Shown here one piece after another: positions 32 to 17,207 of a DNA stretch of 32,057 nt. The notes under the pieces are model-generated. The model saw nothing but the letters and a program-made list of their open reading frames with translations, ran no database searches and had not been told where the DNA came from. Location: positions 1 through 32,057 of IMG/VR virus record IMGVR_UViG_3300025096_000077. One strand, given 5' to 3'. Made by a program: the position numbers and the translations under genes. Every line of letters begins with the position of its first letter. Position 1 is the stretch's first letter. Source of the DNA: a virus.

Positions 32-607
32 TCATATATGATTACACCACCCAGTTACTATGTATTTAATCTGTGAGGGTGAAGGAACCCCTTTATGAAT
101 ATGAGTAAAATATGCTGGCCAAATATAAAGATCTCCTGCTCTTGCTTTTAATGTTATGTTTTGATGTGCGAAATGTGTCCCACCCTTATCAGTAACATCA
201 TTTAAATAAATCAGCCATGCCAAAATTCTCTTGTTAGCAGGTTCATCATCAACAGCATATTCACAATGATCAACCAAATATCCTCCCATGGGTGGATATT
301 TTTGTATATTTACACCAGGATAAACCTCCCAATAACTCAATCCATCTATGTAAGGGTATCTCTTTACAAATTCCCGTATATTTTCTCCTAATATGGTCCT
401 CAACGTAACTATCAAAGGATTTTCATCCGAATAAATCTTAATTCCTAAGTCTAAACTATTTTTAATCTTTCTATCTACCCTCTTCCCATAAAAATCTGAT
501 TGAACACCCGTACCAACCTCCTCATGCTCAAAAAAATCTATTAACTGATTACAATAAAATTTAGAAAGAGCATTCTTCTTTTGATAGATAAGAGTTGATT
601 TCTTCAT
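32..607 (-). CDS. 2OG-Fe(II) oxygenase, prolyl-4-hydroxylase-like
   Basis: This 191-residue protein looks like a small prolyl-4-hydroxylase-type dioxygenase, which uses Fe(II), O2 and 2-oxoglutarate to hydroxylate a substrate. The visible core is H114-x-E116 in 'YLVDHCEYAVD', the strand 'RILAWLIYLNDV', 'GGTHF' near residue 145, and 'WPAYFTHIHKGVPS' at about 163-176. The last segment supplies the distal iron His (H169 or H171), and K181 in 'KYIVTGW' fits the 2-oxoglutarate-binding position. The acidic ligand is Glu where Asp is more usual. It is the last gene of a three-gene cassette: its ATG overlaps the carbamoyltransferase stop as ATGA, so translation is probably coupled. The family and fold are fairly clear. 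The substrate is not known, and a protein, a small molecule or a nucleotide are all possible. Confidence 0.85.
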   Translation of the reverse strand: MKKSTLIYQKKNALSKFYCNQLIDFFEHEEVGTGVQSDFYGKRVDRKIKNSLDLGIKIYSDENPLIVTLRTILGENIREFVKRYPYIDGLSYWEVYPGVNIQKYPPMGGYLVDHCEYAVDDEPANKRILAWLIYLNDVTDKGGTHFAHQNITLKARAGDLYIWPAYFTHIHKGVPSPSQIKYIVTGWCNHI

Positions 608-2085
608 AGTATAATTTGCTTCTCAGGAAAATAAAGATAATCAATATCACTCTTATTTAATGTATTAATCGCATCTTCAACTGTCTCCACAATGGTATCA
701 CCTGCAAGATTAAAAGATGTATTAAGTAACAAAGGAACACCAGTCAATCTATAAAACTCATAAATCAACTGATAGAAATTCTTATTAAATGATTGTCTCA
801 AGGTCTGAATTCTGCATGTATTATCAACGTGACAAATAGCAGGAATTTTATCAGATAAAACATCAAAATTATACAGCATATAAGGAGACTCATCAATAAA
901 ACTCATATCAAACCACTTCTTTGCATGTTCATATAATACAGTTGCTGCCAATGGACGATAATCTTCTCTTCTCTTTAAGGTATTAATCTTATTTCTTCCA
1001 TCAGGATCTCTAGGATCATATAAGATAGAACGATTACCTAATGCACGAGGTCCACATTCAGATCTGCTCTGAAATATAGAAACAACTTTTCCTTCTGCTA
1101 ATAACTGTGCTACTTCTTTGAAGGTGGTTTTCTCTCCTTCAACATCTATCTCTCTCTTTACTCCATTATAAACAGTTTTAAGAGGATTAATTCTTCTACT
1201 CTTAGTCTCATCATACCAACATAGTTTTGCTAATCCAACTGCAACCCCATTATCTCCACATATAGGTTCAATAAAAATCTTAATATCTTTAGGTAAATTT
1301 TTTCTAATATAACTATTTGCTACACAATTTAGAAAATATCCCCCAGATAGACAGACATTATTACATCCAGATAGTTCTACCGCCTGAACCACCAGTCTCC
1401 TTACATATTCCTGACTATAATTTTGTAACCACTTACAAAAATCTGCTTTCTCTTCAAATGTATTAAATTCTGGTTTTAAAGTAACTTCTCTAATATCATT
1501 ATCATCAATCTCAAAGATAGAAGTATCATAATCCACATCATCAGTAGAATATGCTGACATTGCCATCAACTTTCCTGCATCATACCAATTCATTCCCCAT
1601 GTCATACATGTTTTCTCAAACATATCTGCCGGACTTATCCTCTTTAAAGGACGAGTCTTTCCATCTTTTAAAATAATAGGATTATCAAAGGGGACTGAAA
1701 CATAACGGTAAACCAGATCAATCTTAAGAGGATAAGTTAATTTATAAATGCTAATAGATTCTCTACCATAAGTTCCCTCTTTAAAACGAGAATCATCTAA
1801 AGAAACTTCAGATCCCATCCCATCAACTATCACACATACAGCTTCCTTAAATCCAGAATCATAAAAAGAATGAGCTGCATGATAAACATGATGAGTAGAA
1901 TCTAAATCCATTCCTGCATGTGGAGCATTCTCTAAATCCCCAAATTCTTCCATGCACTGATTAGACATCTTATCATGTTTAACATGAGAAAACCTTTCCG
2001 ATTCTAATAGTAAATCTAAATTACCATCTTTGACTAAAGCAATAGATGCATCATGCCATGAACTAAGAGATACTTTATCAGTCAT
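604..2085 (-). CDS. O-carbamoyltransferase, NodU/TobZ/CmcH family
   Basis: This 493-residue protein is a complete NodU/CmcH/TobZ-type carbamoyltransferase. These enzymes move a carbamoyl group from carbamoyl phosphate, through carbamoyl-adenylate, to a hydroxyl of a sugar, antibiotic or nucleoside. The N-terminal half has 'WHDASIALV' (H11, D12), 'HHVYHAAH' at 65-72 (metal-binding histidines) and 'CLSGGYFLNCVAN' at 245-257. The C-terminal domain has 'CGPRALGNRSIL' at 344-355 and 'GVPLLLNTSFN' at 449-459, both family signatures. The length is close to the family's usual 500-580 residues and no key motif is missing. ATGA overlaps join it to an oxygenase on each side, so the three are probably made together. 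Relatives are known to carbamoylate nodulation factors, cephem and tobramycin antibiotics, and hydroxymethylcytosine in some viral systems. The acceptor here is unknown. Confidence 0.9.
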   Translation of the reverse strand: MTDKVSLSSWHDASIALVKDGNLDLLLESERFSHVKHDKMSNQCMEEFGDLENAPHAGMDLDSTHHVYHAAHSFYDSGFKEAVCVIVDGMGSEVSLDDSRFKEGTYGRESISIYKLTYPLKIDLVYRYVSVPFDNPIILKDGKTRPLKRISPADMFEKTCMTWGMNWYDAGKLMAMSAYSTDDVDYDTSIFEIDDNDIREVTLKPEFNTFEEKADFCKWLQNYSQEYVRRLVVQAVELSGCNNVCLSGGYFLNCVANSYIRKNLPKDIKIFIEPICGDNGVAVGLAKLCWYDETKSRRINPLKTVYNGVKREIDVEGEKTTFKEVAQLLAEGKVVSIFQSRSECGPRALGNRSILYDPRDPDGRNKINTLKRREDYRPLAATVLYEHAKKWFDMSFIDESPYMLYNFDVLSDKIPAICHVDNTCRIQTLRQSFNKNFYQLIYEFYRLTGVPLLLNTSFNLAGDTIVETVEDAINTLNKSDIDYLYFPEKQIIL

Positions 2086-2693
2086 TCTTTCAATTGTCCT
2101 TCATCAAACATAAAATTTATAATACATCTCCTATACCCATCAGGACATTTTCCAGCCGAATGATATCTTCTCGCATCAAAAAGAATAGCACGACCTTTCT
2201 TAGTCTCTGCCTTATATTTTGAAGTAAACTTATTAGGATAAGGTTTATCATACATTTCCTTACCAATTAAAGTATAAGAATTGGGAACTGTATTGACAAA
2301 ATACACCATCGACCAACACTCTTGTATAGCATCGGTATGAGGCATAACAATCTTTCTAGTTTTAGGATGATGCGTATTTAAATTTATCTTTGCTCTAAAA
2401 ATTCTATAATCATCACAACCAAAAAATTCTTTACAAGAAGGACGAAATAAACTAACTAAATCTTCACTCCTTTTAGATTGACTTTCATAATTATAAATTA
2501 ATTGATGAACAAACTGATGATGGTCATACGTATTTCTATTAAGGACTGTGTTAATAGACCTCTTCTCCCCATTACTAGCATCATTATAAAAATAAGGAAA
2601 CTGATTACTCAATAAAAGTTCTTCAACAGAATCTTGATCCTGTTTAGGTATAAAATCATCTATTATATAATATCCATCCGCATCGTAAAACAT
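2082..2693 (-). CDS. 2OG-Fe(II) oxygenase (HxD...H type)
   Basis: This 203-residue dioxygenase heads the cassette. The iron triad is legible: 'MPHTDA' gives H119-x-D121, and 'DARRYHSAGKCPDGYRRCIINF' gives H178 with R188 or R189 placed to bind 2-oxoglutarate. The N-terminus ('YYIIDDFIP') is the usual opening strand of P4H-like proteins. It is not closely similar to the 32-607 protein, so the two are unlikely to be a recent duplication and may act on different positions or substrates. The ATG lies about 20 bases downstream of the predicted transcription start of a consensus sigma-70-type promoter, with only a weak ribosome site (GAGAAAAA). Its stop overlaps the carbamoyltransferase start as ATGA. 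The substrate is unknown. Confidence 0.85.
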   Translation of the reverse strand: MFYDADGYYIIDDFIPKQDQDSVEELLLSNQFPYFYNDASNGEKRSINTVLNRNTYDHHQFVHQLIYNYESQSKRSEDLVSLFRPSCKEFFGCDDYRIFRAKINLNTHHPKTRKIVMPHTDAIQECWSMVYFVNTVPNSYTLIGKEMYDKPYPNKFTSKYKAETKKGRAILFDARRYHSAGKCPDGYRRCIINFMFDEGQLKE

Positions 2694-2708
2694 ATACCAT
2701 TTTTCTCA

Positions 2709-2748
2709 ATTATAACAAAATTATAACAAAATTATTTTATAGTGTCAA
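2709..2748 (-). promoter_or_regulatory. Consensus sigma-70-type promoter with duplicated -10
   Basis: Read on the minus strand there is a perfect TTGACA at 2748-2743, a spacer of exactly 17 bases, and a perfect TATAAT at 2725-2720 preceded by TG one base away (extended -10). An 11-base unit, ATTATAACAAA on the plus strand, is repeated in tandem at 2709-2719 and 2720-2730, so a second TATAAT stands at 2714-2709. This fills the gap between the fibre genes and the oxygenase/carbamoyltransferase cassette and points into the cassette. It looks like a host-RNA-polymerase (early) promoter, unlike the TATAAATA-like late motifs before the fibre genes. Confidence 0.85.
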
Positions 2749-2751
2749 TAT

Positions 2752-3135
2752 TTACCTAATTGTTAATGCCCATCCAACTGTCTTTGGATTACCAGTATCT
2801 GCTTGATATGCAGACTCATTCCACATGTATTGCTTGCCATCAGCATCTTGTATTGTTGTAATTCCAGGCTGTGCTATAGGTGGACTATACATTCCACTAG
2901 TTGTGTTTAGAGTCCAAGAAGTTGAAGCAACACCATTAATATCAATGGGTTCTGAATACCTCCAAATATTATTATCCCGATCGTAAACTTTATCACGATT
3001 ACCTGCCGTAGATCCCAACTGATAATCAGCCCATTGTCCACCATGAGGACTTAAAGACTCAACCTCATCCAGGCTATCAGTGTCTAAAATCTCAACAACC
3101 ACTCCCTTCAAATTAATTTTGGAATACTTTGCCAT
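2752..3135 (-). CDS. Putative virion-surface/fibre-associated protein
   Basis: This 127-residue protein was not assigned to a family with known function. It has a short N-terminal strand region ('KYSKINLKGVVVEIL'), an acidic stretch, and an aromatic C-terminal half ('YDRDNNIWRYSEP', 'YMWNESAYQADTGNPKTVGWALTIR'). It ends a run of fibre-like genes and follows the glycine-rich protein by 9 bases, with an AAGGAA ribosome site lying over the upstream stop region. Co-transcription with the fibres suggests a structural or fibre-accessory role. No signal peptide or membrane segment is seen. It is the last gene before the sigma-70-type promoter of the modification cassette. Confidence 0.6.
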   Translation of the reverse strand: MAKYSKINLKGVVVEILDTDSLDEVESLSPHGGQWADYQLGSTAGNRDKVYDRDNNIWRYSEPIDINGVASTSWTLNTTSGMYSPPIAQPGITTIQDADGKQYMWNESAYQADTGNPKTVGWALTIR

Positions 3136-3144
3136 GAGGTTTCC

Positions 3145-4248
3145 TTATACAGTGTATCTAACAACAACAAGACCTGCGCCGCCGCCAGCACCATTTTCAA
3201 AATTACCATTATTGACTGGAGTTCCAGCACCACCACCTCCACCACTACCATTTGCTAATCCAGCTACAGCCGCAGTATTTTTATTGCCTCCACTGCCGCC
3301 ACCATTAGGACCGGGAACCACAGGGTTATCAGAAGGATGTGCGCGACCTCCACTGCCACCACCACCATAGATACCGCTAGTGGGGTTAATACCAGGATAA
3401 CTTATTAAAGGAGCATCCCATCCAGCTGGTCCAAGATCAACACCAGCACCACCTACACCAGGTCCACCACTAGATCCATTGCTACCAACGGCACCGGCAC
3501 CACCGCCACCAGCACCCGTGAAAGGAGGAGATCCAGGAGTACTACCACCATCATAACCATAATTAGTTACCGTACCATCATGAGGATTATTCTGAGCAGG
3601 TTGGTTACCTTCTGCAGCCGGAGAAGCATTAGATCCACCAGAACCCTGACCACCAGCAGATCCGCCACAGTCAGCATTACCTGCATTAGGTCCTGATCCA
3701 CCACCTCCACCGCCTTTTGCGGTTACTTTAATAGTAGTTGGAGAAGTTGCACCAAAAACAGCATCTGTACCGTTAGTCCCTTGATTTCCACCATAAGGAG
3801 CATCTTTAACAGAACATGGAGGTTCAGTATTATTAGTTCCTGCACTAGCATCACCACCACTCCCTCCTCCACCGAGGGTAACATTATAAGTTCCTGCACT
3901 TAAAGTTAAACCAGTAACTAAGGCAACTCCACCGGCGCCACCACCGCCACCACCGTCAGAACCACCATTATTATTAGATCCTCCACCACCACCGGAACCT
4001 ACACAAAGAACCTCAACGGCTTCTGAACCCTGAGAAACAACAAAACTACCCGAAGTCGTGAATGTATGATACTTATATCCATTTCCAGGAGCTGTCCCAT
4101 TTGCCTGATTTCCACCAGTTGCTACAAAAGGTGTATTTAATGTATCTCTCGTCATCAAATAATAGTTATCATCCAAAGAAAACTGTCCGCCAGTAGCACC
4201 GTCTGTAACGGCAGTACCAATACGATTTCCAATAAATCCTCTTGCCAT
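3145..4248 (-). CDS. Glycine-rich tail-fibre/adhesin-like protein
   Basis: This 367-residue protein has a short non-repetitive head (residues 1-60, 'ARGFIGNRIGTAV'). Next comes a segment typical of glycine-rich fibre domains ('YHTFTTSGSF', then 'EVLCVGSGGGGG'). After that are some 250 residues with many Gly runs separated by Asn, Ser, Ala and Pro, ending in 'AGGGAGLVVVRYTV'. That closing strand is characteristic of glycine-rich domains at the end of phage fibre proteins. Known polyglycine tips, such as the phage S16 gp38 adhesin, form packed polyglycine-II helices and bind host receptors. A receptor-binding role is therefore plausible but inferred. The start has a consensus AGGAGG ribosome site. 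The Gly runs produce Pro-rich reading frames on the other strand, which are shadows. Confidence 0.75.
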   Translation of the reverse strand: MARGFIGNRIGTAVTDGATGGQFSLDDNYYLMTRDTLNTPFVATGGNQANGTAPGNGYKYHTFTTSGSFVVSQGSEAVEVLCVGSGGGGGSNNNGGSDGGGGGGAGGVALVTGLTLSAGTYNVTLGGGGSGGDASAGTNNTEPPCSVKDAPYGGNQGTNGTDAVFGATSPTTIKVTAKGGGGGGSGPNAGNADCGGSAGGQGSGGSNASPAAEGNQPAQNNPHDGTVTNYGYDGGSTPGSPPFTGAGGGGAGAVGSNGSSGGPGVGGAGVDLGPAGWDAPLISYPGINPTSGIYGGGGSGGRAHPSDNPVVPGPNGGGSGGNKNTAAVAGLANGSGGGGGAGTPVNNGNFENGAGGGAGLVVVRYTV

Positions 4249-4263
4249 TCTCAGTTCCTCCTA

Positions 4264-4632
4264 TCAATCATCAGTGAGTACTTCATAACCAATAACAATA
4301 TGTAAATCACTATTGGCACTTGCGCCTGCACGAACAGCGTCCCCTTCTTCCAAATATATGGGTGAATTTTTACCCAATACAATAAGAGTGGTATCAGCAG
4401 GAACAGCAACAGTATGTGCTAACTTCCAGTCTGAACTCCCATCATAAAAACTTACCGTAGCATCACAAGAATTAGTTCCATCTATATTTGCCACAATAAT
4501 AGAATTAATCTTATACACATCACCTGATGAACCACCATTTGCTAATATTGAAGTAGTAGTCGTGGTATCAAGTGCTTGGCCATGCGTCTTACCAGTGATA
4601 GTTGTTACATTTACTAAATTTGGGGCAGCCAT
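4264..4632 (-). CDS. Small beta-rich virion protein
   Basis: This 122-residue protein is Thr/Ser-rich with alternating hydrophobic strands and no helix-rich stretch. Its C-terminal half ('ADTTLIVLGKNSPIYLEEGDAV', then 'SDLHIVIGYEVL') resembles the pattern in the 5495-6031 protein ('GSSFVITDAGKTLLETSDSL', then 'VDVALSILKG'). A shared beta-sandwich fold and distant paralogy are likely. It is preceded by a late-promoter-like GATAAATA and a GGAG ribosome site, and sits among fibre genes, so a small fibre, collar or capsid-surface protein is plausible. No specific function can be assigned. Confidence 0.65.
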   Translation of the reverse strand: MAAPNLVNVTTITGKTHGQALDTTTTTSILANGGSSGDVYKINSIIVANIDGTNSCDATVSFYDGSSDWKLAHTVAVPADTTLIVLGKNSPIYLEEGDAVRAGASANSDLHIVIGYEVLTDD

Positions 4633-4654
4633 GTCTTAAAAATCTCCGTAGTTT

Positions 4655-4662
4655 TATTTATC
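4655..4662 (-). promoter_or_regulatory. T4-late-like promoter GATAAATA
   Basis: On the minus strand GATAAATAAAAC lies about 23 bases upstream of the 4632 start codon. It differs from the T4 late -10 TATAAATA at one base. It overlaps the 3' end of the preceding gene. An almost identical GATAAATAAAAC stands before the gp26 gene, which supports both. Confidence 0.5.
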
Positions 4663-5494
4663 CAAATATCATTGCCATGGCAACGGCTTTACCCATTGTT
4701 GCCATACTCTTAGTTCCCTCTTTAAGAGATGTAGCAGTCAAAACTCCAACTACTCTTGCATCACCATGAACGAAAAGACTAGTACCAGAAGTACCAACAG
4801 GACCCACAGTTAGATCAGCTACAGGGTTAGTAGTCCCAATTCCAACCGATGATAATGTATTAATACCAGCAGCAGTCTTGCTCCACAAATCAACTTGTCC
4901 CGGAAGACCAGTTAGATTAGACCCATCACCATAAATCTGATAGGCAGTAAGAATACCAACGTTTGTTATTGAAGTATTATTAACCCTTGAGATTGAATCA
5001 GGTCGTGTAGTACCAATACCCACAGATACTGTAGTATTAATTCCTGCAGCAGTCTTTATCCAAAAATCTGCTTGCCCTGGAAGTCCTGTTAATCCTGAAC
5101 CAGAACCAGAGAAAGAATCAGCAGTAACAATACCACTTGATACTATATCTCCAAAGCTACCAACACCACTGACAGTTAATTTACCACCCAGACTAAGATT
5201 TCCAGTTATCTGGTCAATGCTCTGCCCCATATTAAATGCTTTATAAGCAACTAATTCAAGGATATCTCCACTCTGTGCATACGAAGAAAGTCCAACACTA
5301 GTTCCATTACCAGCTTCATAATCTCTTGCTTCAACTAATTTAACACCGTTAAGGAATACATCCATGTATCCAACGGTATATCCTGCAGCAAATGTAAAGC
5401 TAGTCGTTATTCCACCAGGAGTAAAAACTTCTCTAGCAACAGTTACGGCTGCATCACCAGGATTTCTCCCTATATAACCGCCTCTATCTGCCAT
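4658..5494 (-). CDS. Fibre-like structural protein with VGIGTT repeats
   Basis: This 278-residue protein is modular. Residues 1-90 ('FTPGGITTSFTFAAGYTVGYMDVFLNGVKL', 'GDILELVAYKAF') form a small beta domain common at the N-terminus of marine phage fibre proteins. From about residue 100 there are two copies of a unit of the form YGDGSNLTGLPGQ-DxW-KTAAGINT-SVGIGTT-P, as seen at 'KTAAGINTTVSVGIGTTRP' and 'KTAAGINTLSSVGIGTTNP'. A short helical or hydrophobic tail ('MGKAVAMAMIFG') ends it. The same units occur in the 6058-6954 and giant 9261-15224 proteins. Its start has an AAGGGGGT ribosome site. It is probably a fibre or whisker component. The contact partner is unknown. Confidence 0.7.
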   Translation of the reverse strand: MADRGGYIGRNPGDAAVTVAREVFTPGGITTSFTFAAGYTVGYMDVFLNGVKLVEARDYEAGNGTSVGLSSYAQSGDILELVAYKAFNMGQSIDQITGNLSLGGKLTVSGVGSFGDIVSSGIVTADSFSGSGSGLTGLPGQADFWIKTAAGINTTVSVGIGTTRPDSISRVNNTSITNVGILTAYQIYGDGSNLTGLPGQVDLWSKTAAGINTLSSVGIGTTNPVADLTVGPVGTSGTSLFVHGDARVVGVLTATSLKEGTKSMATMGKAVAMAMIFG

Positions 5495-6031
5495 TTAGCT
5501 AACCCCCTTAAGGATACTCAGAGCCACATCAACTCCATTTGCACTATCACAATAAACTCTTAAAGAATCACTAGTTTCTAAAAGGGTTTTACCAGCATCA
5601 GTAATAACAAAAGAACTTCCAGTTGGAACAGGAATCTTCTGTCCTATACCTACTACAGTATTTGAAGAACTATCATGCACTTCAATCCAAATATTAACTG
5701 CACTATCAGTATTATTAGCAAATGTACCACCAATTAAAATACTTTTATCTGAAGCAGTATACGAACTTGTTAATCCTAAGAATGTAAAACTACCTGTCGC
5801 GGATATCGCAGCAGTGTTAATCGAATCCCTATCAATGTAAACCTTACTAACATCAACTCTATCAACTCTAGTTCCCCCAAGGGTATGAGTACTATCAACA
5901 ATATATCCGGAAGAAATTCCAACTGTTGAAATACCACTAATAATATTAGTTTTAATTCCCACGGAACCTGAGGAGTTCGTAGTTACGATCCCTACTGCTC
6001 TTGATAATGAATTGGTAAACGATTCTGCCAT
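5495..6031 (-). CDS. Small beta-rich virion protein
   Basis: This 178-residue protein has an N-terminal part with short VGI/STVGI turns. From about residue 75 it has a beta-sandwich-like domain ('AISATGSFTFLGLTSSY', 'ILIGGTFANNTDSAVNIWIEVHD', 'DSLRVYCDSANGVDVALSILKG'). The C-terminal domain pattern parallels the 4264-4632 protein. The gene abuts the next one directly, its stop ending one base before the following ATG, and an AATAAATA late-like motif lies about 20 bases upstream of its start. It is probably a virion surface or fibre-associated protein. I do not recognise a named family. Confidence 0.65.
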   Translation of the reverse strand: MAESFTNSLSRAVGIVTTNSSGSVGIKTNIISGISTVGISSGYIVDSTHTLGGTRVDRVDVSKVYIDRDSINTAAISATGSFTFLGLTSSYTASDKSILIGGTFANNTDSAVNIWIEVHDSSSNTVVGIGQKIPVPTGSSFVITDAGKTLLETSDSLRVYCDSANGVDVALSILKGVS

Positions 6032-6051
6032 TGTTCTTTAAGTGTTAAAGT

Positions 6052-6059
6052 TATTTATT
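6052..6059 (-). promoter_or_regulatory. T4-late-like promoter AATAAATA
   Basis: Minus-strand AATAAATA lies 20 bases before the 6031 start codon, one base away from TATAAATA, at the very end of the preceding gene. A+T richness makes chance occurrence possible. The consistent placement before several genes in this run is the main support. Confidence 0.4.
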
Positions 6060-6954
6060 AACCGCCAAGTGCGATTACCATTCCAAGAGATGCACCTGGA
6101 GTGACTGTTGCTGTTGCCACACCTGATGATGGGGCTGTGACCGTCCATGCTGTTCCATTACTGGATGCAAAATTAATAAAGGTAGTACCAGATCCAATAT
6201 AAGTTCCTTCGGAAGCAACACCAATCTGACCACCTGATGCAGCAACTACACCAGTTAAATTGGAACCATCTCCATAGAAGGAATCAGCAGTAACAATACC
6301 ACTTGATACCACATCAGTCATACTGGTGAGTCCAGTAAGAGTGGAAGCTCCACTTACACTTACAGTGGTTGCATGGAAATATGCAATCGTGCCAAGACCA
6401 GTAATATTAATCTCACGACCAGAAACTTGATCGTAAGTAATATCATCCTTGACGTAGAGATCCCCACCAACATACAAATCTCCACCCGTCGTAGTAATAC
6501 CACCTTGGCTTGCAAGTGTAGTAATACCCGTAACAGATAGAGTAGTTGTAATAGCAACGTGACTATTAAATGTGGATACTCCTACAACAGAAAGACCCCA
6601 CCCAACCAAAGCACTACCACTTGGTTGAATAGTAACAGCACGATCTCCAAAAGTAGAAAGGCCAGTAATATTAATCTCACGACCAGAAACTTGGTCATAA
6701 GTAATATCATCTTTTACATAAAGATCCCCACCAACATAAAGATCGCCACCCGTGGTAGTAATTCCACCTTGGCTTGCAAGGGTACTAACACCAGTGACGA
6801 CTATAGAGGTAGCACCAATGCCACCAGCAACTTCTAATTCAAATTTAGGAGCAGTTGAACCAATACCAACTTTCTGATTGGTCGCATCAGCTAAAATAAG
6901 CTTGGTATCTACCTCAAGCCCATTCTTTACAACAAAATTCTTATTGACAGCCAT
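6058..6954 (-). CDS. Fibre-like structural protein with internal duplication
   Basis: This 298-residue protein begins 'MAVNKNFVVKNGLEVD', a head often found on marine phage fibre-like proteins. It continues with beta-repeat units ('LILADATNQKVGIGSTAPKFELEV'). A segment of about 40 residues, 'LASQGGITTTGGDLYVGGDL' through 'DQVSGREINITGL', occurs twice, 88 residues apart. A later unit, 'VVSSGIVTADSFYGDGSNLTG', matches one in the 4658-5494 protein. The C-terminus ends in 'GASLGMVIALGG'. An exact TATAAATA late promoter lies 36 bases upstream. The repeated beta modules suggest an elongated trimeric fibre shaft, though no receptor-binding tip is recognisable. Confidence 0.7.
   Translation of the reverse strand: MAVNKNFVVKNGLEVDTKLILADATNQKVGIGSTAPKFELEVAGGIGATSIVVTGVSTLASQGGITTTGGDLYVGGDLYVKDDITYDQVSGREINITGLSTFGDRAVTIQPSGSALVGWGLSVVGVSTFNSHVAITTTLSVTGITTLASQGGITTTGGDLYVGGDLYVKDDITYDQVSGREINITGLGTIAYFHATTVSVSGASTLTGLTSMTDVVSSGIVTADSFYGDGSNLTGVVAASGGQIGVASEGTYIGSGTTFINFASSNGTAWTVTAPSSGVATATVTPGASLGMVIALGG
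6398..6516. repeat. Direct repeat, copy A (period 264 bases)
   Basis: About 119 bases that recur with scattered mismatches at 6662-6780, offset by exactly 264 bases (88 codons, in frame) within one fibre gene. The mismatches are mostly at third codon positions, so the encoded residues stay the same. This points to an old duplication kept under protein-level selection. Confidence 0.9.
6662..6780. repeat. Direct repeat, copy B (period 264 bases)
   Basis: Second copy of the in-frame duplication whose first copy is at 6398-6516. Both encode the same segment ending in 'GREINITGL'. The two copies differ mainly by synonymous changes such as tcgtaa/tcataa and gacgtag/tacataa. Confidence 0.9.
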
Positions 6955-6989
6955 GCGGGTTCACTTTCCCCCAACAGAGTATTATTATT

Positions 6990-6997
6990 TATTTATA
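6990..6997 (-). promoter_or_regulatory. T4-type late promoter TATAAATA
   Basis: Minus-strand TATAAATA, an exact match to the T4 late -10 element used by sigma gp55. It lies in the 60-base gap between the 744-residue fibre gene and the 6058-6954 gene, 36 bases before the latter's ATG. It is one of two exact copies in this window. Confidence 0.7.
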
Positions 6998-7014
6998 AGG
7001 AATATTTGTTAGAA

Positions 7015-9249
7015 TCAAATCTCAAACTTAACATACCCTGTCTGACTTGTATTACCAAACAATTGCTCAACCGTATTCACATCTCCATTTTGATATCCAC
7101 TTCCACCTCCACCACCAGCACCATTTCCATTTGCAGCATCACCACCCGTAGACCCACTACCACCACCACCTAAGAAGGAATTAGAAGTCTGCCCACCATT
7201 TACTCTATGGGCTAATCCTGCTTTGTATCCTCTTGTTATTGTATCGGTAGATTCACTTATTACACTTCCATCTCCTGCACGGAATTTAACTTTTCCCATG
7301 TCTTGACAAGCACTATATCCTTGTGCGGTCCAATACTGTCCAAAAGTACATGCAGATACTCTACCAGCGGTTGTTTCATAAGCAGACCCAGAAGGGAGCC
7401 AAGTTCCACCAGGGAAAAATCCTTGTAATGGTAATTGACCATCCCCATATCTCTCTCCTCCTTCACCTGCACCATTACCTCCCCCAGGACCATTCTCACC
7501 ACTCACTCCTACTCCTCCACCATCACCACCAACATAATCATCACCAGCTTTACCACCACCACCTACACAAGCGATAAGAGTTCCTCCTTCATATAAAAAT
7601 GTTGCTTCTCCACCACCACCTTTATCACCTTGTGGGGATTCCGCAGAACCAACCTTAACCGCATATTCTACATTTTGTTTAAGAGTCATATAAAATGATG
7701 AAACACCACCCTTACCACCAACATGGTGAGGTGGATTCTCATGAGTTCTACCTGCAGCAGCCGCCATTGTTACTTTAGCAACAATATCCTTCTCTGGTGC
7801 ATAAATGACAACAACTTTAGAACCTACTGCCGCTGAACCAATGGTAATAGAAGAATCTGCCAAGTTAGTCTCTCCACTACTATACCAACTTCCTGACAAT
7901 CCTTCATTCATATTTTCATGCTTTATAATCTCTCTAGCAGTAATAACATTTAAATTAACAATATCCGAATATAAAGGCGAATTACATGCTATGGGGTGAG
8001 TTATTCTACAAGTAACTGTTTGAATTCCAGCTGTTGCTGTACTCAATTCTAAAATAGAACCAGTAGCACCAGAAACTCTATCAGTTAAAGTTCTATTCTC
8101 CGATGTAGGACCAGAAGACACTAGTGGATCTGACTGATACTTAGCAAAATATCCTTGACTTGCTTCCAATAACATATCATTCCAATCATCTCCACCTTCT
8201 TCAATTATCAATCTTTTATTACCACCACCTGCAGGAGTATCTCCTCCAATATACAAATTGGCAGGAGAAGAAAGTGGATAACACTTATAAATTCTACCTC
8301 CTTCAACATCAATATTCCAATTTCCATTTTCCGGGAAATCTCTGATGCCGTCTATCCTAATCTGATGCCATATACCAGATTCTTCCCATGCACGAAAATT
8401 AACTTGTCTGCTTCCAGTCCATGCAATTGTATTATAATAGATATGATTACCTCTTCCACCATTACCACCATCAAATCCTGGAACAGCAACATTAACAGGA
8501 GCAACAGGAACTGATATAGTATAAGATGTCTCACCATTGGATAAATCGCTACCATTTGCTTGCCATTGATAGCTTAAAGTATCTATATTTGAATTACCAG
8601 TTACAATTCCAACTACAGTAAATCTAGCAGTACCTTGCGCTGATGCGGCATTAGTAGCAGGAATTGTTTGTGTCTCTGGTTGAGTTATAATTTGAATAGA
8701 TGGATGAAGTGTAAAATCTACTTTATTACTATCTACACTATACAAAGAAGGCCATCCAGGTGCTCCCCATGGAGAAGTAGAATCTACAACCCCCTCATTG
8801 ATTGCATTACCAGTAGAACGACCAGTAGAAACAGTAACTTGACCTCCTGAAGAATAAGCAGAAGGAACATAATCAGGTTTTAAGAAAAACTTTAACCCAT
8901 CTACAGTTGCGGCAGTACCATTCAACTCATATGTAGTAGAATTGCCATAAACTGTAAGAGTGGTAGTTGCTGCTCCCGTAATGCCCGTCAAACCTATAGC
9001 GGTCATCGTCCCATTACTCATCTTTGCTTGAGTAGGAGCACTTGTTCCCGCCAATTCATACCACCACTGATAAGAAAGAGAACCAGTATTAGTAGCATAA
9101 GATGCTGCAAGTCCAACAGGAAATGTTGCCGTAGCAATGCCTGTAAAAGTACCTACCCCACAAGTAGTAACACCAGTAGGTTGCGATAACCACGACAGCG
9201 TTGGCCCATTCAGGTCAAGGGTGGTTTTTCTCTGAATAAAATTATCCAT
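7015..9249 (-). CDS. Large fibre protein with Ig-like and glycine-rich domains
   Basis: This 744-residue protein has three visible parts. Residues 1-230 contain two Ig-like modules marked by 'LSYQWWYELAG' (about 60) and 'LSYQWQANGSDL' (about 228). Residues 270-400 form a mixed region with 'WTGSRQVNFRAWEESGIWHQIRIDG'. From about 470 there is a glycine-rich C-terminal half ('VIYAPEKDIVAKVTMAAAAG', 'VGSAESPQGDKGGGGEA', 'CVGGGGKAGDDYVGGDGGG') ending 'NTSQTGYVKFEI'. Ig-like domains on phage virions often bind cell-surface sugars, and polyglycine tips bind receptors. A host-recognition fibre is therefore likely, by inference. A strong AGGAGAT ribosome site precedes the ATG, overlapping the end of the giant gene. 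Confidence 0.75.
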   Translation of the reverse strand: MDNFIQRKTTLDLNGPTLSWLSQPTGVTTCGVGTFTGIATATFPVGLAASYATNTGSLSYQWWYELAGTSAPTQAKMSNGTMTAIGLTGITGAATTTLTVYGNSTTYELNGTAATVDGLKFFLKPDYVPSAYSSGGQVTVSTGRSTGNAINEGVVDSTSPWGAPGWPSLYSVDSNKVDFTLHPSIQIITQPETQTIPATNAASAQGTARFTVVGIVTGNSNIDTLSYQWQANGSDLSNGETSYTISVPVAPVNVAVPGFDGGNGGRGNHIYYNTIAWTGSRQVNFRAWEESGIWHQIRIDGIRDFPENGNWNIDVEGGRIYKCYPLSSPANLYIGGDTPAGGGNKRLIIEEGGDDWNDMLLEASQGYFAKYQSDPLVSSGPTSENRTLTDRVSGATGSILELSTATAGIQTVTCRITHPIACNSPLYSDIVNLNVITAREIIKHENMNEGLSGSWYSSGETNLADSSITIGSAAVGSKVVVIYAPEKDIVAKVTMAAAAGRTHENPPHHVGGKGGVSSFYMTLKQNVEYAVKVGSAESPQGDKGGGGEATFLYEGGTLIACVGGGGKAGDDYVGGDGGGVGVSGENGPGGGNGAGEGGERYGDGQLPLQGFFPGGTWLPSGSAYETTAGRVSACTFGQYWTAQGYSACQDMGKVKFRAGDGSVISESTDTITRGYKAGLAHRVNGGQTSNSFLGGGGSGSTGGDAANGNGAGGGGGSGYQNGDVNTVEQLFGNTSQTGYVKFEI

Positions 9250-9260
9250 TAACTATCTCC

Positions 9261-12200
9261 TCAACCGAAGTTTTGACCACCAACTACACCATAGAAACTA
9301 CTTCCACCATCAAATGTTCTAAAGGAATAAATGTCTGACTTACCTGCTCCCGTGGATACTACAGGAATTACTCCACCACCAGGCCACAGAAGGTCAATAG
9401 CATCACCACTATTATCATAGAATGTTTCAATTCCAGTAGTATTATTCGCTGGAGAAACTACGCTAAATCCACCAGTAGAGTCCTGCAAGAACTTAATCGT
9501 AAAGGCACTTCCCTCAGAAGGAATATTCTTTAACTTAACCTGGTTAATATCCTGATCAACAGTACATGTAAATGTCTGTGCTGATGTAAGATCCAATGTA
9601 AGAACATTAGAAGCACTAGTAACGATACCAACCTTATTACGAGATGCAACTAATCTCATTACACCTTCAACATCTAAGGTATCTCTGGCAACAGAAGTTC
9701 CGATACCAACCTTAGATGTAGTAGTGCTTACATTAAATACTGTTCCACCTGTTCCAACATTTAAAGTGCGAGAAGTAGTTACTCCTGCCTCAATGTATCC
9801 AGTAGTAGGTGAAATAAAGTTATAACTTGTTGCAGTAATAGACCCACCAACCACTACATCATAAGTGAAGTCAGCAGTACCAATAAACCTAGACCTATTA
9901 GCAACATACAAATCAGTCTTACCTGTTCCAGCACCAGCCTTGTCATCACCGACTTGCAGACTGAAACTACTGTTAGGTATGGTCGTTCCAATTCCCACAT
10001 TTACATTGCTAACTGGATAAACTCCCGTTCCAATTCCCGATGCAACACCATTCCATCTGCTATCAGTTGGAAGATTAGTCAACGCAGAACCATCACCCGC
10101 ATAAGTTGATGCATACATGCCACCAACGATATTAAGTTTAAAACGGGCAGCATTCGTAGAAGCACTGGTAGTTGCAATACCAACATTTCCAGAACCATCA
10201 ACAAAGAAGACAGATGAACCAGAACCAACCTTAAGTGTTATGTCAGTTCCAATACCAGCATATGTAGTGGTACCAATACCCACATTATCAAATATTGCAG
10301 TAGATGTATTGGTTGAAATACTTACATTACCAAAGCGTCTCCAAGCATTACCGGAGGTATAAACCCATCCCATGTATCCGCCTTGGGCTGGATCAGAGTT
10401 CCATGCTACATCTCCAGGGTTACCTGCAAGAGAAGGAGTTGCAATTCCTACCGTATACTTACGTGAAACAGTAGCATCTCCTTGGAGGAATAAATGATTT
10501 GCTTCCAAACCAGCAGAAGATGTAGAAGTAACCTTCTTACTAAAGACAACAGGACCATCAAATTCTGAAAGAATATCATTATCTGGACCACCCTCAACCT
10601 TTAAAGAACGACTAATAGTTGCTTCTTGAGGGGTAATAACATCAAATCCAACACTAGATCCTGTATCAGCAATATCCTCACCAGTTACAGTAGGAATAGG
10701 AGCATCAAATAATTCTTCTTGTCCTGTAGCAGAACTTACCTTCTTATTACCAATGTAGAAGTCACCATCACTATTCATAGCAGTGTAAACAACTACACCA
10801 CCATCCTTCTTAGTAGACTGTGCCAACAATTCTTCTGACTTAGACAGCTGTCTATCCTGACGCTCAGGTAAAGAAGTAGAGTAGTTACCTGGACCATATC
10901 CCAGATATTCAAATGTATGACCGGATGCACGAAGAATAGAATTTCTACGCAACTCAACTGGAGTTACACGTATTCTTCTAACAACAGTCGCATCAATATG
11001 AGTCTTACGCTTAGTTCCTAAAATACCACGGAATACATTTATAGGATTATCCGCTACCGTAGTTTTAATTCTAACAATCTCATCACCAATTAACAGATAA
11101 TCACCAATACGAAGTCCCAAATTAGAAAGATTAGTAAGACTAATTTCTGTTGTGGTTGCCGTAGCAATTGCAGCATCTAAAGTTGTTGTAACTCCATCAT
11201 ATTCAATAATCTGACGACCACCAATATTCTCATTTTCATTAGTAATACTACCTGCCTGAGAAACAAAACCTTCTCTATAAGCACGCAGTGTTCCAGTTGT
11301 AGCAGGAGCAGAAGTTCCAACTCCAACATTCATTACAAATGTAGTAAGACCTACATTCTCTGTTACAACAAACGAATCGTTATAATAATCATTCGCAGCA
11401 CCAGCAATTCTAATTCTATTATCAACCCTTAAACCATGATTATCAGAAGTAACAACAGTTGCTACACCAGATATCCTATCATATGTCAAAGAAGAAACAC
11501 TAATAGAAGCACCAGTAGGATATGATATTGCATCAGATGTTAAATTAGCACCCAAACCAGTCGTGGAAGCATTACCTACAGTAGATGCAGATGAAACATT
11601 AATTTCTTTCGTTAATCCTGTTGTAATTCCAACAATTCTATACAGTTGGTTATAATCCTGACAATTAGCAGAAGATACACCAGCAATTCTTATAACATCT
11701 CCAGCATTATCATAAATGCTTGTTACACTTACAACACCTACACTATGACCAGTGGTAGTTGCAATACCCACCACATGCATAGTGTTACCAACACCATATG
11801 CAGAACCACCATCCATAATAATACAAGAGGTAATTCCACCAACAGCATCAACACTAACCATTGCTGTTGCAAACTTACCAGTTGTTGAAGATCCAATGGA
11901 AACTAACTTAGCATCATAAAGTGTTGTTGCTGAACCACTACCATATTTTGTACCACTGTTCGCAATACTAACCTTAGTGATGCGATTATATCCATGATCA
12001 TAAGAAGTAAAGATAGTATGAGAACTACCGACTATAGTAGCAGTTCCATCAGACATAATATTAGTAATTCCAATACCAACTGCAGTATCACTTAAATTCT
12101 TAGTAAGTGTTTCTTTTGTAAGACTACTCTGTGGCTCATCAATAACAACTTCACCAACTGGAGTTGGAAGAGCAAAAGAAACAGAATCCTGAGGGTCAGA

Positions 12201-15200
12201 TGAAGGTGTATCTCTATTGTTTTGTGGATAGAGATTCTTAACTGGCTGTGAGAAGTTCTCATTTAAGAACGGAGCAACACTTGGAGAGTTAGTAGCATTA
12301 AGTATCATCAAATGATAGATACCATCTTGCTCTCCCGCAATGTACTTCTGAACCTGTTGAGAGCGATAAACGTAATAGGTATTCTTATAATCTTTACGAT
12401 TAAAATAAGGTAAAGAAGTAGTTCTACTATTAATATCATTACTAAATGTTCCCGGATCTCCCGAAAGAGGACCATAGAAACACTTAGCACTACTAATACC
12501 AGAAACAGTGAAAGTATTATTATATGCAGTACTAGTAAGACCACTAGTATTTTCGGTACTAGTTACTTGAAGAGTTTCAATAACAGAACCAACTGATAAT
12601 TCATGAGGAACTTCAGTTGTATAGTATGCATTTGACCCATCCCATGTTGCATTAGCAATAAATCTTGGATTTCTATTCTCACTTACATTACTTAAAGTAA
12701 CTGTTGTGGGACTAAAATAAGAAGCAATTTCAGTATTATCATCTCCTCTCGTATCATTAGATTCTTGAAGAACAAAACCCTCAATAGGAGGTCTTGCTGA
12801 GGTAATTCCACTTCCCGATGGAATTACATATCTCATCTTATAAATTGTATCCCCTAAGTTTCTAGTATCAGGTTTTCTGGTAATAAACGTTCTAGGAGTT
12901 GCATCTCCCAATGCAGTGGTTCCCAAGGATACAACCTTTGAAGAAAGATTATTATCAGTTCCTGCTATCGCAACATTAATATACCACTGACCTGCAGTAC
13001 TATTATACTGAACTGGGTGACCTATATCACCAGAATTCTTATCAGAAACCCTAGACAGCACATTCGTTGTTCCACCCAAATCATTAAGGGATAGAACAGG
13101 ATCTGCATTTCTAGCATCATTTAATGTGGAAGCAACCTTTATTTGATTGGTTCCAACACCAGAAGTAACTGCATAATAAAGGGTATTATTATCAACCCCA
13201 TCAGGTAATTGCCCAGTATCCGAGACAAATCTAATAGACTCACCATCAATGAACTGGTGAGGTTTGGTAAAGGTAATAGTATTAGAAGAAATACTATTAG
13301 CAGTCCCTGCTAGATTTCTACCAACAATAGATATCTTCTCAGAACTTATTTCCTCATACCCTCCTGTCACTGGACTAACACCTTGAGTGTTAGGCATTAC
13401 AATTTTAGCAGAATATTGAGTTGTTACTCCACTCTGAGTTAATAAACACTTAAGATGATCATCTTCCTTTGCACCAATTCTATATCCTTCAATAACATTA
13501 ACTGGAGGAACTTCTGAGTTTTTCTGATTATAAAGATACAAATGACAAGTAGTAGATGTTCCAACAGCTTGAGTAACAGTTTGTCCTACATCAATTGCAG
13601 TATATTCTATATTTGTATCAGAATTGGTAATCTCTTTAGGTGGAATAACATGCGTAATATATCCTACATCATCCCTCGTGAAAGAATCTCTCCTATATCC
13701 ACTAGAGATAAGAGAAGAAGCACCAAAGTTAGAGTTAGAGTTAGTAATTGACTGGTCACCACCACTCTTAGCAACAAAGTGTTGGGAATAACCAATCGCA
13801 AAGACAGAAACAACCTGTAATACAGCGTTATTATCACACTTAATATGATAGTTGCTATATGCTGGCTTATAAACTGCTAGCGAATCGCTGTGTATATTCT
13901 CATTACCTGCATAAGTACTATCTTGATATGCACCACTAGTCTCATCATACTTAACAAAAGCATTATTATCCTTCTGCAATCCAATACCCGTAAACTGGGC
14001 AAGAACCATTGATTTAAATCCATCTGCTTTATCACCATCAGCATACAAACCACACATACCATATACTGACCTCAGAGAGCAGTTAAAGATATATGGTGAA
14101 GAAGAAGCTACCGTATCAACAGCAAGGTTAACAGTCGATCCTGTAACAGTGGGAAGGGCATTAGAAGGAGCAGTCGAAACTTTATACTTAAATTCTGTAG
14201 AACTTACAACATCACTAATTACAAACTGACCATCATATCCAGATGCAGTAATTCCATTAATTCTAATTGCAGTGTCTGTATCAGCACCTGTGAGAGCAGT
14301 AGTTGTGGTAACAGTAATAGTTGTAGTAGGAGTTGCACCATCACCTGCTTTAATACTATTGATACCTACTTGGCCACCTGTTGGTCCAACAATCCTATAT
14401 TCATCAATCTTAGGTTGAATATCCAATCCTGCTGAAGGATAATCAGGTTCAATTTCACGACCAGAAGAAGGTCCATAAGCAAGACCCACCTTCTCATAAT
14501 ACATATCCAGATCAGTTCTGGTACTGGAAGAGAATGTGAGGAAAGTATCATCAATACTAACAGTATTTGCACCATCAGCATACTCAAAACAAGTTAATTT
14601 ATGGTGAGAGAAGTTAGGAACAAAAGTATTAGTCGTATAATCCTTATATACTAATCCATTTGGATCTCCATCAAACATAGAGAACTGATAGAGATAACAT
14701 CCACCAGTTACACGGAATAAAGCAGATCTCTCAATATTGTCGTTTGTTGGATTAGGAACATACTTAGGTCTTATCTTTGTCTTTCTTAAATCTAAACCTA
14801 CAATCGAAGTACCACGAGGAAGAATTACACCACCGTAGATACTATTAAGCTTATAAAGTGCATTATTTTCACTACTTAAATCAAAATTAGTTGAAAGGTC
14901 CCACTGAGGAAAATCAGTTGAAGTAGTTCCATTCCTTAATTTATAACTATTTGCTCCATCCGGAATCCATCCAGGTCTATTATCTACTGTATGCTCACCA
15001 GGATACAATAATATTGTCGTCTTACCAAATCTATCGTTCTCTAATCCCTTCTGATATGAAAATCTAGATGCCTCAATCAATGCACGTTGAATAGTCTTAA
15101 ACGGACGTGTGAGTGAATTACCCTGATTCTCAATACTGTCAGTAGAATCTAAATCATTTGGGTTGACATAAAGAATATTACCGCGAGTATTCTTTATAAA

Positions 15201-15224
15201 ATTATCTAATCGACTTAGAGGCAT
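9261..15224 (-). CDS. Giant structural protein (1987 aa), fibre or baseplate-associated
   Basis: This single 1987-residue frame is the largest gene in the window. The N-terminus ('NTRGNILYVNPNDLDSTDS', 'RPFKTIQRALIEASRFSYQ', residues 14-57) resembles pectate-lyase-like beta-helix openings. A long middle section is beta-rich with repeated 'SGI...V....HGL' turns. Around residues 1420-1450 there is a distinctive 'SGHTFEYLGYGPGNYSTSLPE' segment, followed by 'DGDFYIGNKKVSSATGQEELFDAP'. The last 450 residues carry VGIGTT-type units ('VNVGIGTTIPNSSFSLQVGD'). Such very long proteins are typical of T4-like cyanophages, where they are virion structural proteins of unclear position. It shares modules with the smaller fibre proteins downstream, so it is probably part of the fibre or baseplate periphery. 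No frameshift or stop is seen. Confidence 0.7.
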   Translation of the reverse strand: MPLSRLDNFIKNTRGNILYVNPNDLDSTDSIENQGNSLTRPFKTIQRALIEASRFSYQKGLENDRFGKTTILLYPGEHTVDNRPGWIPDGANSYKLRNGTTSTDFPQWDLSTNFDLSSENNALYKLNSIYGGVILPRGTSIVGLDLRKTKIRPKYVPNPTNDNIERSALFRVTGGCYLYQFSMFDGDPNGLVYKDYTTNTFVPNFSHHKLTCFEYADGANTVSIDDTFLTFSSSTRTDLDMYYEKVGLAYGPSSGREIEPDYPSAGLDIQPKIDEYRIVGPTGGQVGINSIKAGDGATPTTTITVTTTTALTGADTDTAIRINGITASGYDGQFVISDVVSSTEFKYKVSTAPSNALPTVTGSTVNLAVDTVASSSPYIFNCSLRSVYGMCGLYADGDKADGFKSMVLAQFTGIGLQKDNNAFVKYDETSGAYQDSTYAGNENIHSDSLAVYKPAYSNYHIKCDNNAVLQVVSVFAIGYSQHFVAKSGGDQSITNSNSNFGASSLISSGYRRDSFTRDDVGYITHVIPPKEITNSDTNIEYTAIDVGQTVTQAVGTSTTCHLYLYNQKNSEVPPVNVIEGYRIGAKEDDHLKCLLTQSGVTTQYSAKIVMPNTQGVSPVTGGYEEISSEKISIVGRNLAGTANSISSNTITFTKPHQFIDGESIRFVSDTGQLPDGVDNNTLYYAVTSGVGTNQIKVASTLNDARNADPVLSLNDLGGTTNVLSRVSDKNSGDIGHPVQYNSTAGQWYINVAIAGTDNNLSSKVVSLGTTALGDATPRTFITRKPDTRNLGDTIYKMRYVIPSGSGITSARPPIEGFVLQESNDTRGDDNTEIASYFSPTTVTLSNVSENRNPRFIANATWDGSNAYYTTEVPHELSVGSVIETLQVTSTENTSGLTSTAYNNTFTVSGISSAKCFYGPLSGDPGTFSNDINSRTTSLPYFNRKDYKNTYYVYRSQQVQKYIAGEQDGIYHLMILNATNSPSVAPFLNENFSQPVKNLYPQNNRDTPSSDPQDSVSFALPTPVGEVVIDEPQSSLTKETLTKNLSDTAVGIGITNIMSDGTATIVGSSHTIFTSYDHGYNRITKVSIANSGTKYGSGSATTLYDAKLVSIGSSTTGKFATAMVSVDAVGGITSCIIMDGGSAYGVGNTMHVVGIATTTGHSVGVVSVTSIYDNAGDVIRIAGVSSANCQDYNQLYRIVGITTGLTKEINVSSASTVGNASTTGLGANLTSDAISYPTGASISVSSLTYDRISGVATVVTSDNHGLRVDNRIRIAGAANDYYNDSFVVTENVGLTTFVMNVGVGTSAPATTGTLRAYREGFVSQAGSITNENENIGGRQIIEYDGVTTTLDAAIATATTTEISLTNLSNLGLRIGDYLLIGDEIVRIKTTVADNPINVFRGILGTKRKTHIDATVVRRIRVTPVELRRNSILRASGHTFEYLGYGPGNYSTSLPERQDRQLSKSEELLAQSTKKDGGVVVYTAMNSDGDFYIGNKKVSSATGQEELFDAPIPTVTGEDIADTGSSVGFDVITPQEATISRSLKVEGGPDNDILSEFDGPVVFSKKVTSTSSAGLEANHLFLQGDATVSRKYTVGIATPSLAGNPGDVAWNSDPAQGGYMGWVYTSGNAWRRFGNVSISTNTSTAIFDNVGIGTTTYAGIGTDITLKVGSGSSVFFVDGSGNVGIATTSASTNAARFKLNIVGGMYASTYAGDGSALTNLPTDSRWNGVASGIGTGVYPVSNVNVGIGTTIPNSSFSLQVGDDKAGAGTGKTDLYVANRSRFIGTADFTYDVVVGGSITATSYNFISPTTGYIEAGVTTSRTLNVGTGGTVFNVSTTTSKVGIGTSVARDTLDVEGVMRLVASRNKVGIVTSASNVLTLDLTSAQTFTCTVDQDINQVKLKNIPSEGSAFTIKFLQDSTGGFSVVSPANNTTGIETFYDNSGDAIDLLWPGGGVIPVVSTGAGKSDIYSFRTFDGGSSFYGVVGGQNFG

Positions 15225-15447: not shown

Positions 15448-16038
15448 TTATGGACGCAAATCAATATTAAAAGAAACAGATATTCTCTCTTGATTAGATT
15501 CATTCTCAGCAACATGGTGTGTAAGAAATGAAGGGAATACTACCATTCCTCCTTCCTGAGGTTCCAAATAATAATCCAAATAAGTAGAGGTACTCTCCTT
15601 AAATCCCTCAGAATAAGACTCCAATTCAGCATATCTGTCAAAAGCCTGATGATTACTAAACCATAATTCTCCACAATTTTTAGGAGTTTTAATCCACCAC
15701 ACTCCAGACAGATGAGAGTGTGGATGCGTGTGGTATTTGTTATAAGCACCTTTAGGATTAACATTAATCCAAAGATTGGTAATTTTTAACCCTACATTCT
15801 CTTTAAAAATCTTTTCAATAGAAAAATAATCTACTACTTCCTTTAAAACAGTATCTATTAAAATATTAGGTTCCCCAGGCAAGATAGGCTGGGATTGCCA
15901 TCCACGTTTATTTGATTTAACAACCCCCTTCTTATCCCTCTTTCTCTCCGAATGTATGTATGAAGTTACATCTTCCTTAATTATTTTAAAATTCCTTACC
16001 TTAATCTCATGGATACTCAAAGGAAATAAAGATCTCAT
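15448..16038 (-). CDS. 2OG-Fe(II) oxygenase (TIGR02466-like)
   Basis: This 196-residue protein is a putative 2OG-Fe(II) dioxygenase of the type often seen in T4-like cyanophages. Visible features are 'NPKGAYNKYHTHPHSHLSGVWWI' at about 94-116 (H103 and H105 as candidate metal ligands), 'GELWFSNHQAFDR', and 'GGMVVFPSFLTHHVAENESNQERISVSFNI' (distal H174 or H175, R185 for 2-oxoglutarate). The family is known mostly by sequence and its substrates are undetermined. The start overlaps the 64-residue gene's stop as ATGA, and both lie behind a near-consensus sigma-70-type promoter. It is the third oxygenase in this window and is only distantly similar to the other two. Confidence 0.8.
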   Translation of the reverse strand: MRSLFPLSIHEIKVRNFKIIKEDVTSYIHSERKRDKKGVVKSNKRGWQSQPILPGEPNILIDTVLKEVVDYFSIEKIFKENVGLKITNLWINVNPKGAYNKYHTHPHSHLSGVWWIKTPKNCGELWFSNHQAFDRYAELESYSEGFKESTSTYLDYYLEPQEGGMVVFPSFLTHHVAENESNQERISVSFNIDLRP

Positions 16039-16253: not shown

Positions 16254-16282
16254 ATTATACCACAGTTATTCCTAGGCGTCAA
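16254..16282 (-). promoter_or_regulatory. Near-consensus sigma-70-type promoter
   Basis: Minus strand: TTGACG at 16282-16277, a 17-base spacer, and TATAAT at 16259-16254 with TGG directly before it (extended -10). The -35 element lies inside the last codons and stop of the 16272-16610 gene. The predicted start site is near 16247, leaving a leader of about 18 bases to the 16229 ATG. It should drive the 64-residue gene and the 2OG oxygenase. Confidence 0.8.
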
Positions 16283-17205: not shown

Positions 17206-17207
17206 GA

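Follow-up and report, generated by a model that had tools for sequence, protein, structure and literature searches.

An operon-like oxygenase and carbamoyltransferase triple

The DNA analysed here (the window) comes from a marine bacterial virus; it is the 32,057-base record IMGVR_UViG_3300025096_000077, which carries T4-like tail, baseplate, head-closure and single-stranded DNA-binding genes and has cyanophages as its relatives. At one end, beside fibre genes, an O-carbamoyltransferase (CTase) gene lies between genes for two 2-oxoglutarate/Fe(II)-dependent (2OG) oxygenases. Oxygenases of this type install hydroxyls, and enzymes of the NodU/TobZ type carbamoylate hydroxyls through a carbamoyl-adenylate. 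The initial annotation, made from the sequence alone, had proposed a hydroxylate-then-carbamoylate system at this locus, whose features are as follows.

32-607, minus strand: OxyA, a prolyl 4-hydroxylase (P4H)-like 2OG-Fe(II) oxygenase of 191 amino acids (aa), identified by PF13640, profile search and alignment
604-2085, minus strand: CTase of the NodU/TobZ type, 493 aa, identified by PF16861, PF02543, structural relatives and invariant columns
2082-2693, minus strand: OxyB, a second 2OG-Fe(II) oxygenase, 203 aa, identified by alignments, an AlphaFold2 model and fold matches
2752-3135, minus strand: Wsp, a small tryptophan-rich protein of unknown function, 127 aa, identified by phrog_7759 and a family alignment
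3145-4248, minus strand: glycine-rich fibre/adhesin-like protein, 367 aa, 29% glycine, identified by PF21722, composition and alignment

On the minus strand the genes are therefore read in the order glycine-rich protein, Wsp, OxyB, CTase, OxyA. The open reading frames (ORFs) of the three enzymes are intact, and both junctions, OxyB/CTase and CTase/OxyA, can be read in the sequence as ATGA overlaps, in agreement with the initial annotation, whose coordinates for the cassette (32-2693) were correct. Only 31 bases of the window remain past OxyA; in L007, a closely related viral contig, the next gene after OxyA is another fibre-like gene.

The assignment of OxyA rests on a match to 2OG-FeII_Oxy_3 (PF13640) with a score of 35.5 bits, above the Pfam cut-off of 27, and on a profile search in which it matched Bacillus prolyl 4-hydroxylase structures (E ~5e-7). 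The alignment points to H114, E116, H171 (or H169) and K181 as the likely Fe/2OG residues. OxyB scored 16.9 bits in Pfam, under the cut-off of 27, and its relative in contig L030 reached 33.6 bits. The AlphaFold2 model of OxyB (pLDDT 81, pTM 0.83) matched 2OG oxygenases with Z ~14-16 and rmsd 3.0-4.0 over 152-186 residues, most of its length, with SnoN-type enzymes among the matches as well as the prolyl hydroxylase PHD2. Its likely ligand residues are H119, D121, H178 and R189, the first three being invariant in 9 alignment rows. OxyB is thus predicted by the model to have the double-stranded beta-helix fold of 2OG oxygenases with an HxD...H motif. The best fold matches listed for OxyB contained no AlkB or TET structure, although this does not prove that there is none. 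The resemblance to bacterial P4H and to PHD2 lies in the sequence profile of OxyA and in the fold of OxyB; identity is low (13-18% between OxyB and its fold matches), and the prolyl-hydroxylase likeness is one of sequence and fold alone.

The CTase carries both domains of its family, PF02543 (51 bits) and PF16861 (193 bits), each above its cut-off and corresponding to a Kae1-like N-terminal and a YrdC-like C-terminal part. The conserved motifs HHxxH (65-69), D278, GPRALGNRS and KRREDYRP are present and align with those of NovN, and the best relatives by sequence in the PDB are TobZ, GdmN and NovN. Residues H65, H66, H69, D278, R347, N351, R352, R373 and R377 are invariant among 10 phage sequences; we take them, from knowledge of the family, to serve the metal site and carbamoyl-adenylate formation. 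The window CTase thus shares both Pfam domains, the metal-site HHxxH and GPRALGNRS with NodU, TobZ, NovN and GdmN. However, the known enzymes act on Nod factors or antibiotics, whereas the window CTase is phage-borne, has a short N-terminal domain and is encoded between two oxygenases beside a fibre gene. At 493 aa it has some 40-70 residues fewer before the HHxxHA motif than its phage relatives. The missing stretch sits between the N-terminal region and HHxxHA, and its absence could open the acceptor site to a large substrate. That two 2OG oxygenases flank a CTase, as first annotated, was borne out for OxyA by Pfam, for OxyB by the predicted fold and for the CTase by both domains in spite of its shortness. 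All three enzymes retain their probable iron-binding residues.

Comparison with L007 gave dN/dS values of 0.19 for OxyB, 0.19 for the CTase and 0.25 for OxyA. All three genes are therefore under purifying selection.

Recurrence of the triple and relationships of its carbamoyltransferase

Close scans of viral contigs yielded L007 (CTase identity 95%), L013 and L008. The order OxyB-CTase-OxyA is kept in L007 and L013, and L008 has the same arrangement with one additional oxygenase gene between those for the CTase and OxyA. The oxygenases of L008 and L013 are 45-52% identical to those of the window. A wider scan identified L025, L030 and L040, near-duplicates that represent one lineage, in which the order is CTase1, OxyB, CTase2, OxyA. 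In these three contigs the alternating CTase and oxygenase genes come after fibre-like genes rich in Cys/Gly and the gene of a GT9-like protein, and they are followed by heptose-type nucleotidyltransferase and kinase genes (L030:5637-10323, and also L025 and L040).

In a quick tree of 101 CTases, the window CTase and CTase2 of this second lineage fell into different groups, each well supported (99-100% SH-aLRT). OxyA and OxyB of the same contigs belong to the subfamilies of their window counterparts, a placement that does not establish them as closest sisters, and the L030 OxyA, as a caution, appears to have a tyrosine in place of the last iron-ligand histidine. The triple has either exchanged its CTase or arisen twice. 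A functional link between the three genes is favoured in both cases. The initial annotation had regarded the three genes as one unit, a view that would have been refuted had they not co-occurred in related genomes; they do so in L007, L013 and L025/L030/L040 and, with an insert, in L008, and the conserved order, the purifying selection and the recurrence with a non-sister CTase all speak for such a unit. Across loci selected by their CTase, 36 of 102 CTase genes directly adjoin a 2OG gene; the remaining genes of these loci do so in 10.8% of cases (p 2e-4).

The three proteins might instead share one operon and act on unrelated substrates. OxyA- and OxyB-family genes are indeed found apart from CTases, but the triple is retained in related loci and recurs in another lineage with a different CTase, which makes this explanation improbable.

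The tree also bears on DNA or nucleotides as the substrate, in which case an oxygenase would make a hydroxymethyl base and the CTase would carbamoylate it, giving a product comparable to 5-carbamoyloxymethylcytosine. A phage-associated carbamoyltransferase of 5-hydroxymethylcytosine (5hmC), identified by MetaGPA, has a thymidylate synthase homologue as its partner and acts on DNA, RNA or a nucleotide (PMC8670742). It resembles the window CTase in belonging to the same superfamily, in its association with phages and in being paired with a hydroxyl-making gene, and some cyanophage CTases adjoin thyX (S-RIM44 and S-SCSM1). However, its sequence is very distant: the window CTase lies outside its clade in the quick tree, where the 5hmC enzyme has a long branch of ~7 changes per column. 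The partners in the window are 2OG oxygenases that resemble P4H and PHD2, and no thymidylate synthase or hydroxymethylase was recognised among the genes of the 32 kb window, a genome fragment. Because the 5hmC enzyme is so distant and no hydroxymethylase-type gene was seen in the window, DNA modification is very improbable, in agreement with the initial annotation, which had argued somewhat against DNA from the P4H-like character of the oxygenases. In S-SCSM1 (L105:3187-6769) and S-RIM44 (L099:4995-6616) two separate genes encode the parts of the CTase beside thyX, the C-terminal one (PF16861) coming first; the enzyme may have two subunits there and is a candidate for modifying DNA or nucleotides.

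Association with glycine-rich fibre genes and Wsp

A glycine-rich fibre gene was found at most three gene positions from the CTase gene in 12 of 12 loci (10 of them non-duplicate), in both orientations; these loci comprise the CTase groups of the window and of S-CAM8. L007 contains three glycine-rich fibre genes, and a separate set of enzyme genes comes after each: 2OG genes with a tryptophan halogenase, the triple, and a single 2OG gene. One stretch of this contig (L007:304-4827) holds a glycine-rich fibre gene, two Pfam-confirmed 2OG oxygenases, one 2OG-like gene without a Pfam match and the tryptophan halogenase. Relatives of the glycine-rich protein were identified via PF21722 and composition.

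As these loci had been picked for their CTase, viral contigs were also scanned with Wsp alone, by an alignment of its closer relatives, and 56 non-redundant loci were obtained. The family alignment of Wsp has conserved SW, W, P and WNE positions. In 52 of 65 cases the gene immediately upstream of Wsp is glycine-rich, a call made by composition and not by Pfam; for other genes the figure is 13 of 328 (Fisher p 6e-40). The gene immediately downstream encodes a 2OG oxygenase in 17 of 67, compared to 6 of 340 (p 3e-10); in both tests genes were counted as independent though the loci are related, near-duplicates having been removed. All 17 cases with a downstream 2OG gene also have a glycine-rich gene upstream, and Pfam confirmed 9 of 10 oxygenases sampled from the survey loci. 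The suggestion in the initial annotation that a virion protein of the fibre region is a candidate substrate thus receives support from a survey whose loci were picked irrespective of enzymes.

In loci picked by OxyA, glycine-rich genes were no nearer to the enzymes than expected by chance (6 of 13 vs 5.8), and an enzyme followed Wsp in 7 of 10 cases against 2.9 expected (p 0.003). In cyanophage isolates (ten genomes, with one S-SSM5-type representative), 13 2OG genes lie within 6 kb of PF21722 genes against 5.0 expected (p 0.009), which is a modest clustering.

Larger islands were also observed. L147 and L151 carry a glycine-rich gene, Wsp, 2OG, CTase, 2OG and tryptophan halogenase genes and then four more 2OG genes. 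In L134 and L114, Wsp is accompanied by three glycine-rich genes and by 2OG genes, of which there are three or four. The L147 island spans 1260-9129 (that of L151 is alike) and adjoins the structural gene phrog_3287, which was not found in the window. Among cultured phages, S-SM1 has a glycine-rich gene and Wsp followed by a series of 2OG-type genes, the Pelagibacter phage HTVC008M has a glycine-rich gene and Wsp, its 2OG genes being on the opposite strand, the Synechococcus phages S-SSM5 and S-CAM8 have glycine-rich, CTase, 2OG and Wsp genes, and in HTVC025P, CRP-207 and Melnitz-2 no enzyme genes adjoin the glycine-rich gene and Wsp. Because some phages have this pair without neighbouring enzymes, it looks like the core of the arrangement, with the enzymes as an optional part.

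Fibre regions might, by contrast, simply be insertion hot spots, with the enzymes as metabolic cargo, unconnected with the fibre, that alters the metabolism of the host (its 2-oxoglutarate and nitrogen balance, or its repair). Published work has proposed for cyanophage 2OG genes a role in nitrogen balance, energy or DNA repair (PMC3037559, PMC2984593, PMC9602691), and many 2OG genes are distant from fibre genes. The clusters described in PMC3037559 and PMC9602691 include the same gene families and partly the same loci (S-SSM5, P-RSM4), but they are presented as auxiliary metabolic genes, and no link to a glycine-rich fibre or Wsp is drawn in the parts of these papers available. Against mere cargo stand the strict order of glycine-rich gene, Wsp and 2OG gene across diverse viral contigs, the ATGA-coupled junctions and the CTase/glycine-rich association retained in both orientations. 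Since hot-spot cargo should have no fixed partner, we regard this explanation as unlikely.

Some cyanophage 2OG genes carry another label. The 'denV' gene of S-SSM7 (L103:8064-8618), phrog_274 and phrog_2297 are labelled DNA endonuclease V or DNA endonuclease. The S-SSM7 gene matches 2OG-FeII_Oxy_3 with 37 bits, and both PHROGs match the window oxygenases; the endonuclease label is likely an annotation error that spread.

The remaining genes of the fibre region in the window are listed below.

4264-4632, 4658-5494, 5495-6031, 6058-6954 and 7015-9249, minus strand: five more fibre-region genes, the last glycine-rich at its C-terminus
9261-15224, minus strand: large tail fibre protein, 1987 aa (phrog_529)
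15448-16038, minus strand: third 2OG oxygenase (2OG-FeII_Oxy_5; PF13759, 84.7 bits; phrog_81), upstream of the large fibre gene

At 16272-17999, flanked by the baseplate hub region on one side and the fibre genes on the other, lie three tandem ORFs of the same families (phrog_17490/phrog_28536), apparently repeated duplications of one unknown gene.

A possible fibre-modification island

We consider it quite plausible, and hold it tentatively on gene order and sequence resemblance, that OxyB-CTase-OxyA forms the enzyme part of a fibre-linked island which would modify the glycine-rich adhesin or Wsp. The unit would begin with the adhesin and Wsp and continue with at least one modifying enzyme. 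While the virion is being assembled, the two oxygenases would hydroxylate prolines or other exposed residues between the glycine runs of the adhesin, or residues in Wsp, in a reaction that uses O2, Fe(II) and 2-oxoglutarate. The CTase, with carbamoyl phosphate and ATP, would then cap a hydroxyl made by an oxygenase as a carbamate, and the receptor-binding tip would be chemically diversified, with a possible effect on host binding. The strict form of this scheme, hydroxylation followed by carbamoylation on one residue, is somewhat unlikely. We know of no precedent for O-carbamoylation of a phage protein. The glycine-rich protein does have proline- and asparagine-bearing stretches between its glycine runs, and no collagen-type Gly-X-Y array was seen in its sequence; its AlphaFold2 model (pLDDT 49) was too poor for use.

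Several observations weigh against this interpretation. The exact triple was not found in any isolate searched, and OxyB-like and OxyA-like genes also exist without a CTase (S-RIM2; L106-L153). No enzyme gene adjoins 50 of the 67 Wsp genes, most 2OG genes in cyanophage isolates (13 genomes) are far from glycine-rich genes, and the clustering in isolates falls to p 0.07 without the S-SSM5 group. Small-molecule oxygenases rank as high as PHD2 among the fold matches of OxyB. Finally, CTases of the other clades are mostly accompanied by heptose-type sugar genes and a gene for a GT9-like protein, and a sugar substrate is therefore possible.

The CTase would in that case carbamoylate a sugar, which might be free, bound to a nucleotide, part of a glycan on the fibre or exposed on the surface of the host, and the oxygenases would act on the same sugar or separately. 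The known NodU/TobZ-type enzymes act on small molecules (NodU on Nod factors), and a large other part of the phage CTase family adjoins genes for a GT9-like protein, an HldE-like nucleotidyltransferase and kinase, and a heptose epimerase. However, the neighbours of the CTase in the window, L007, L008, L009, L013 and L014 include no recognised glycosyltransferase or sugar-nucleotide gene, and the GT9-like and HldE-like genes in particular were not seen around the CTase of the window, L007, L008 or L013. The sugar-linked clade is itself often near Gly/Cys-rich fibre-like genes, and thus the fibre link is not removed. We judge a sugar substrate rather unlikely, though it and metabolic cargo are both serious alternatives.

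Modification of a virus's own glycine-rich protein has a counterpart in mimivirus, which encodes enzymes that modify its collagen-like protein (PMC9546862). That virus is eukaryotic, and its system involves collagen Gly-X-Y repeats and glycosylation, as opposed to Gly-run fibres and carbamoylation. The kind of process proposed here therefore has a distant precedent. The role of the cyanophage halogenase has been called unknown (PMC2984593), and no literature linking phage fibres to hydroxylation or to this halogenase was found in a limited search, with subscription papers outside its scope. The enzyme families are thus known and their arrangement is new; the literature searched contained no description of the module.

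The recurrence of this kind of block beside fibre genes in many other phages suggests, and does not prove, that these phages chemically modify their own host-binding fibres. It is possible, though on balance doubtful, that many tailed phages carry adhesin-modification islands, in which a glycine-rich receptor-binding protein and a dedicated Wsp partner are combined with exchangeable hydroxylases, CTases and tryptophan halogenases that write non-standard residues. If so, phages would use dedicated enzymes of their own to decorate their receptor-binding proteins, and receptor-binding chemistry could change by enzyme swapping as well as by mutation. Much of the unexplained 2OG oxygenase repertoire of marine phages would also gain a function; phage carbamoyltransferases and tryptophan halogenases are likewise unexplained. 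The fixed genetic partner, a glycine-rich fibre with Wsp, makes this old question directly testable in the virions of cultured phages.

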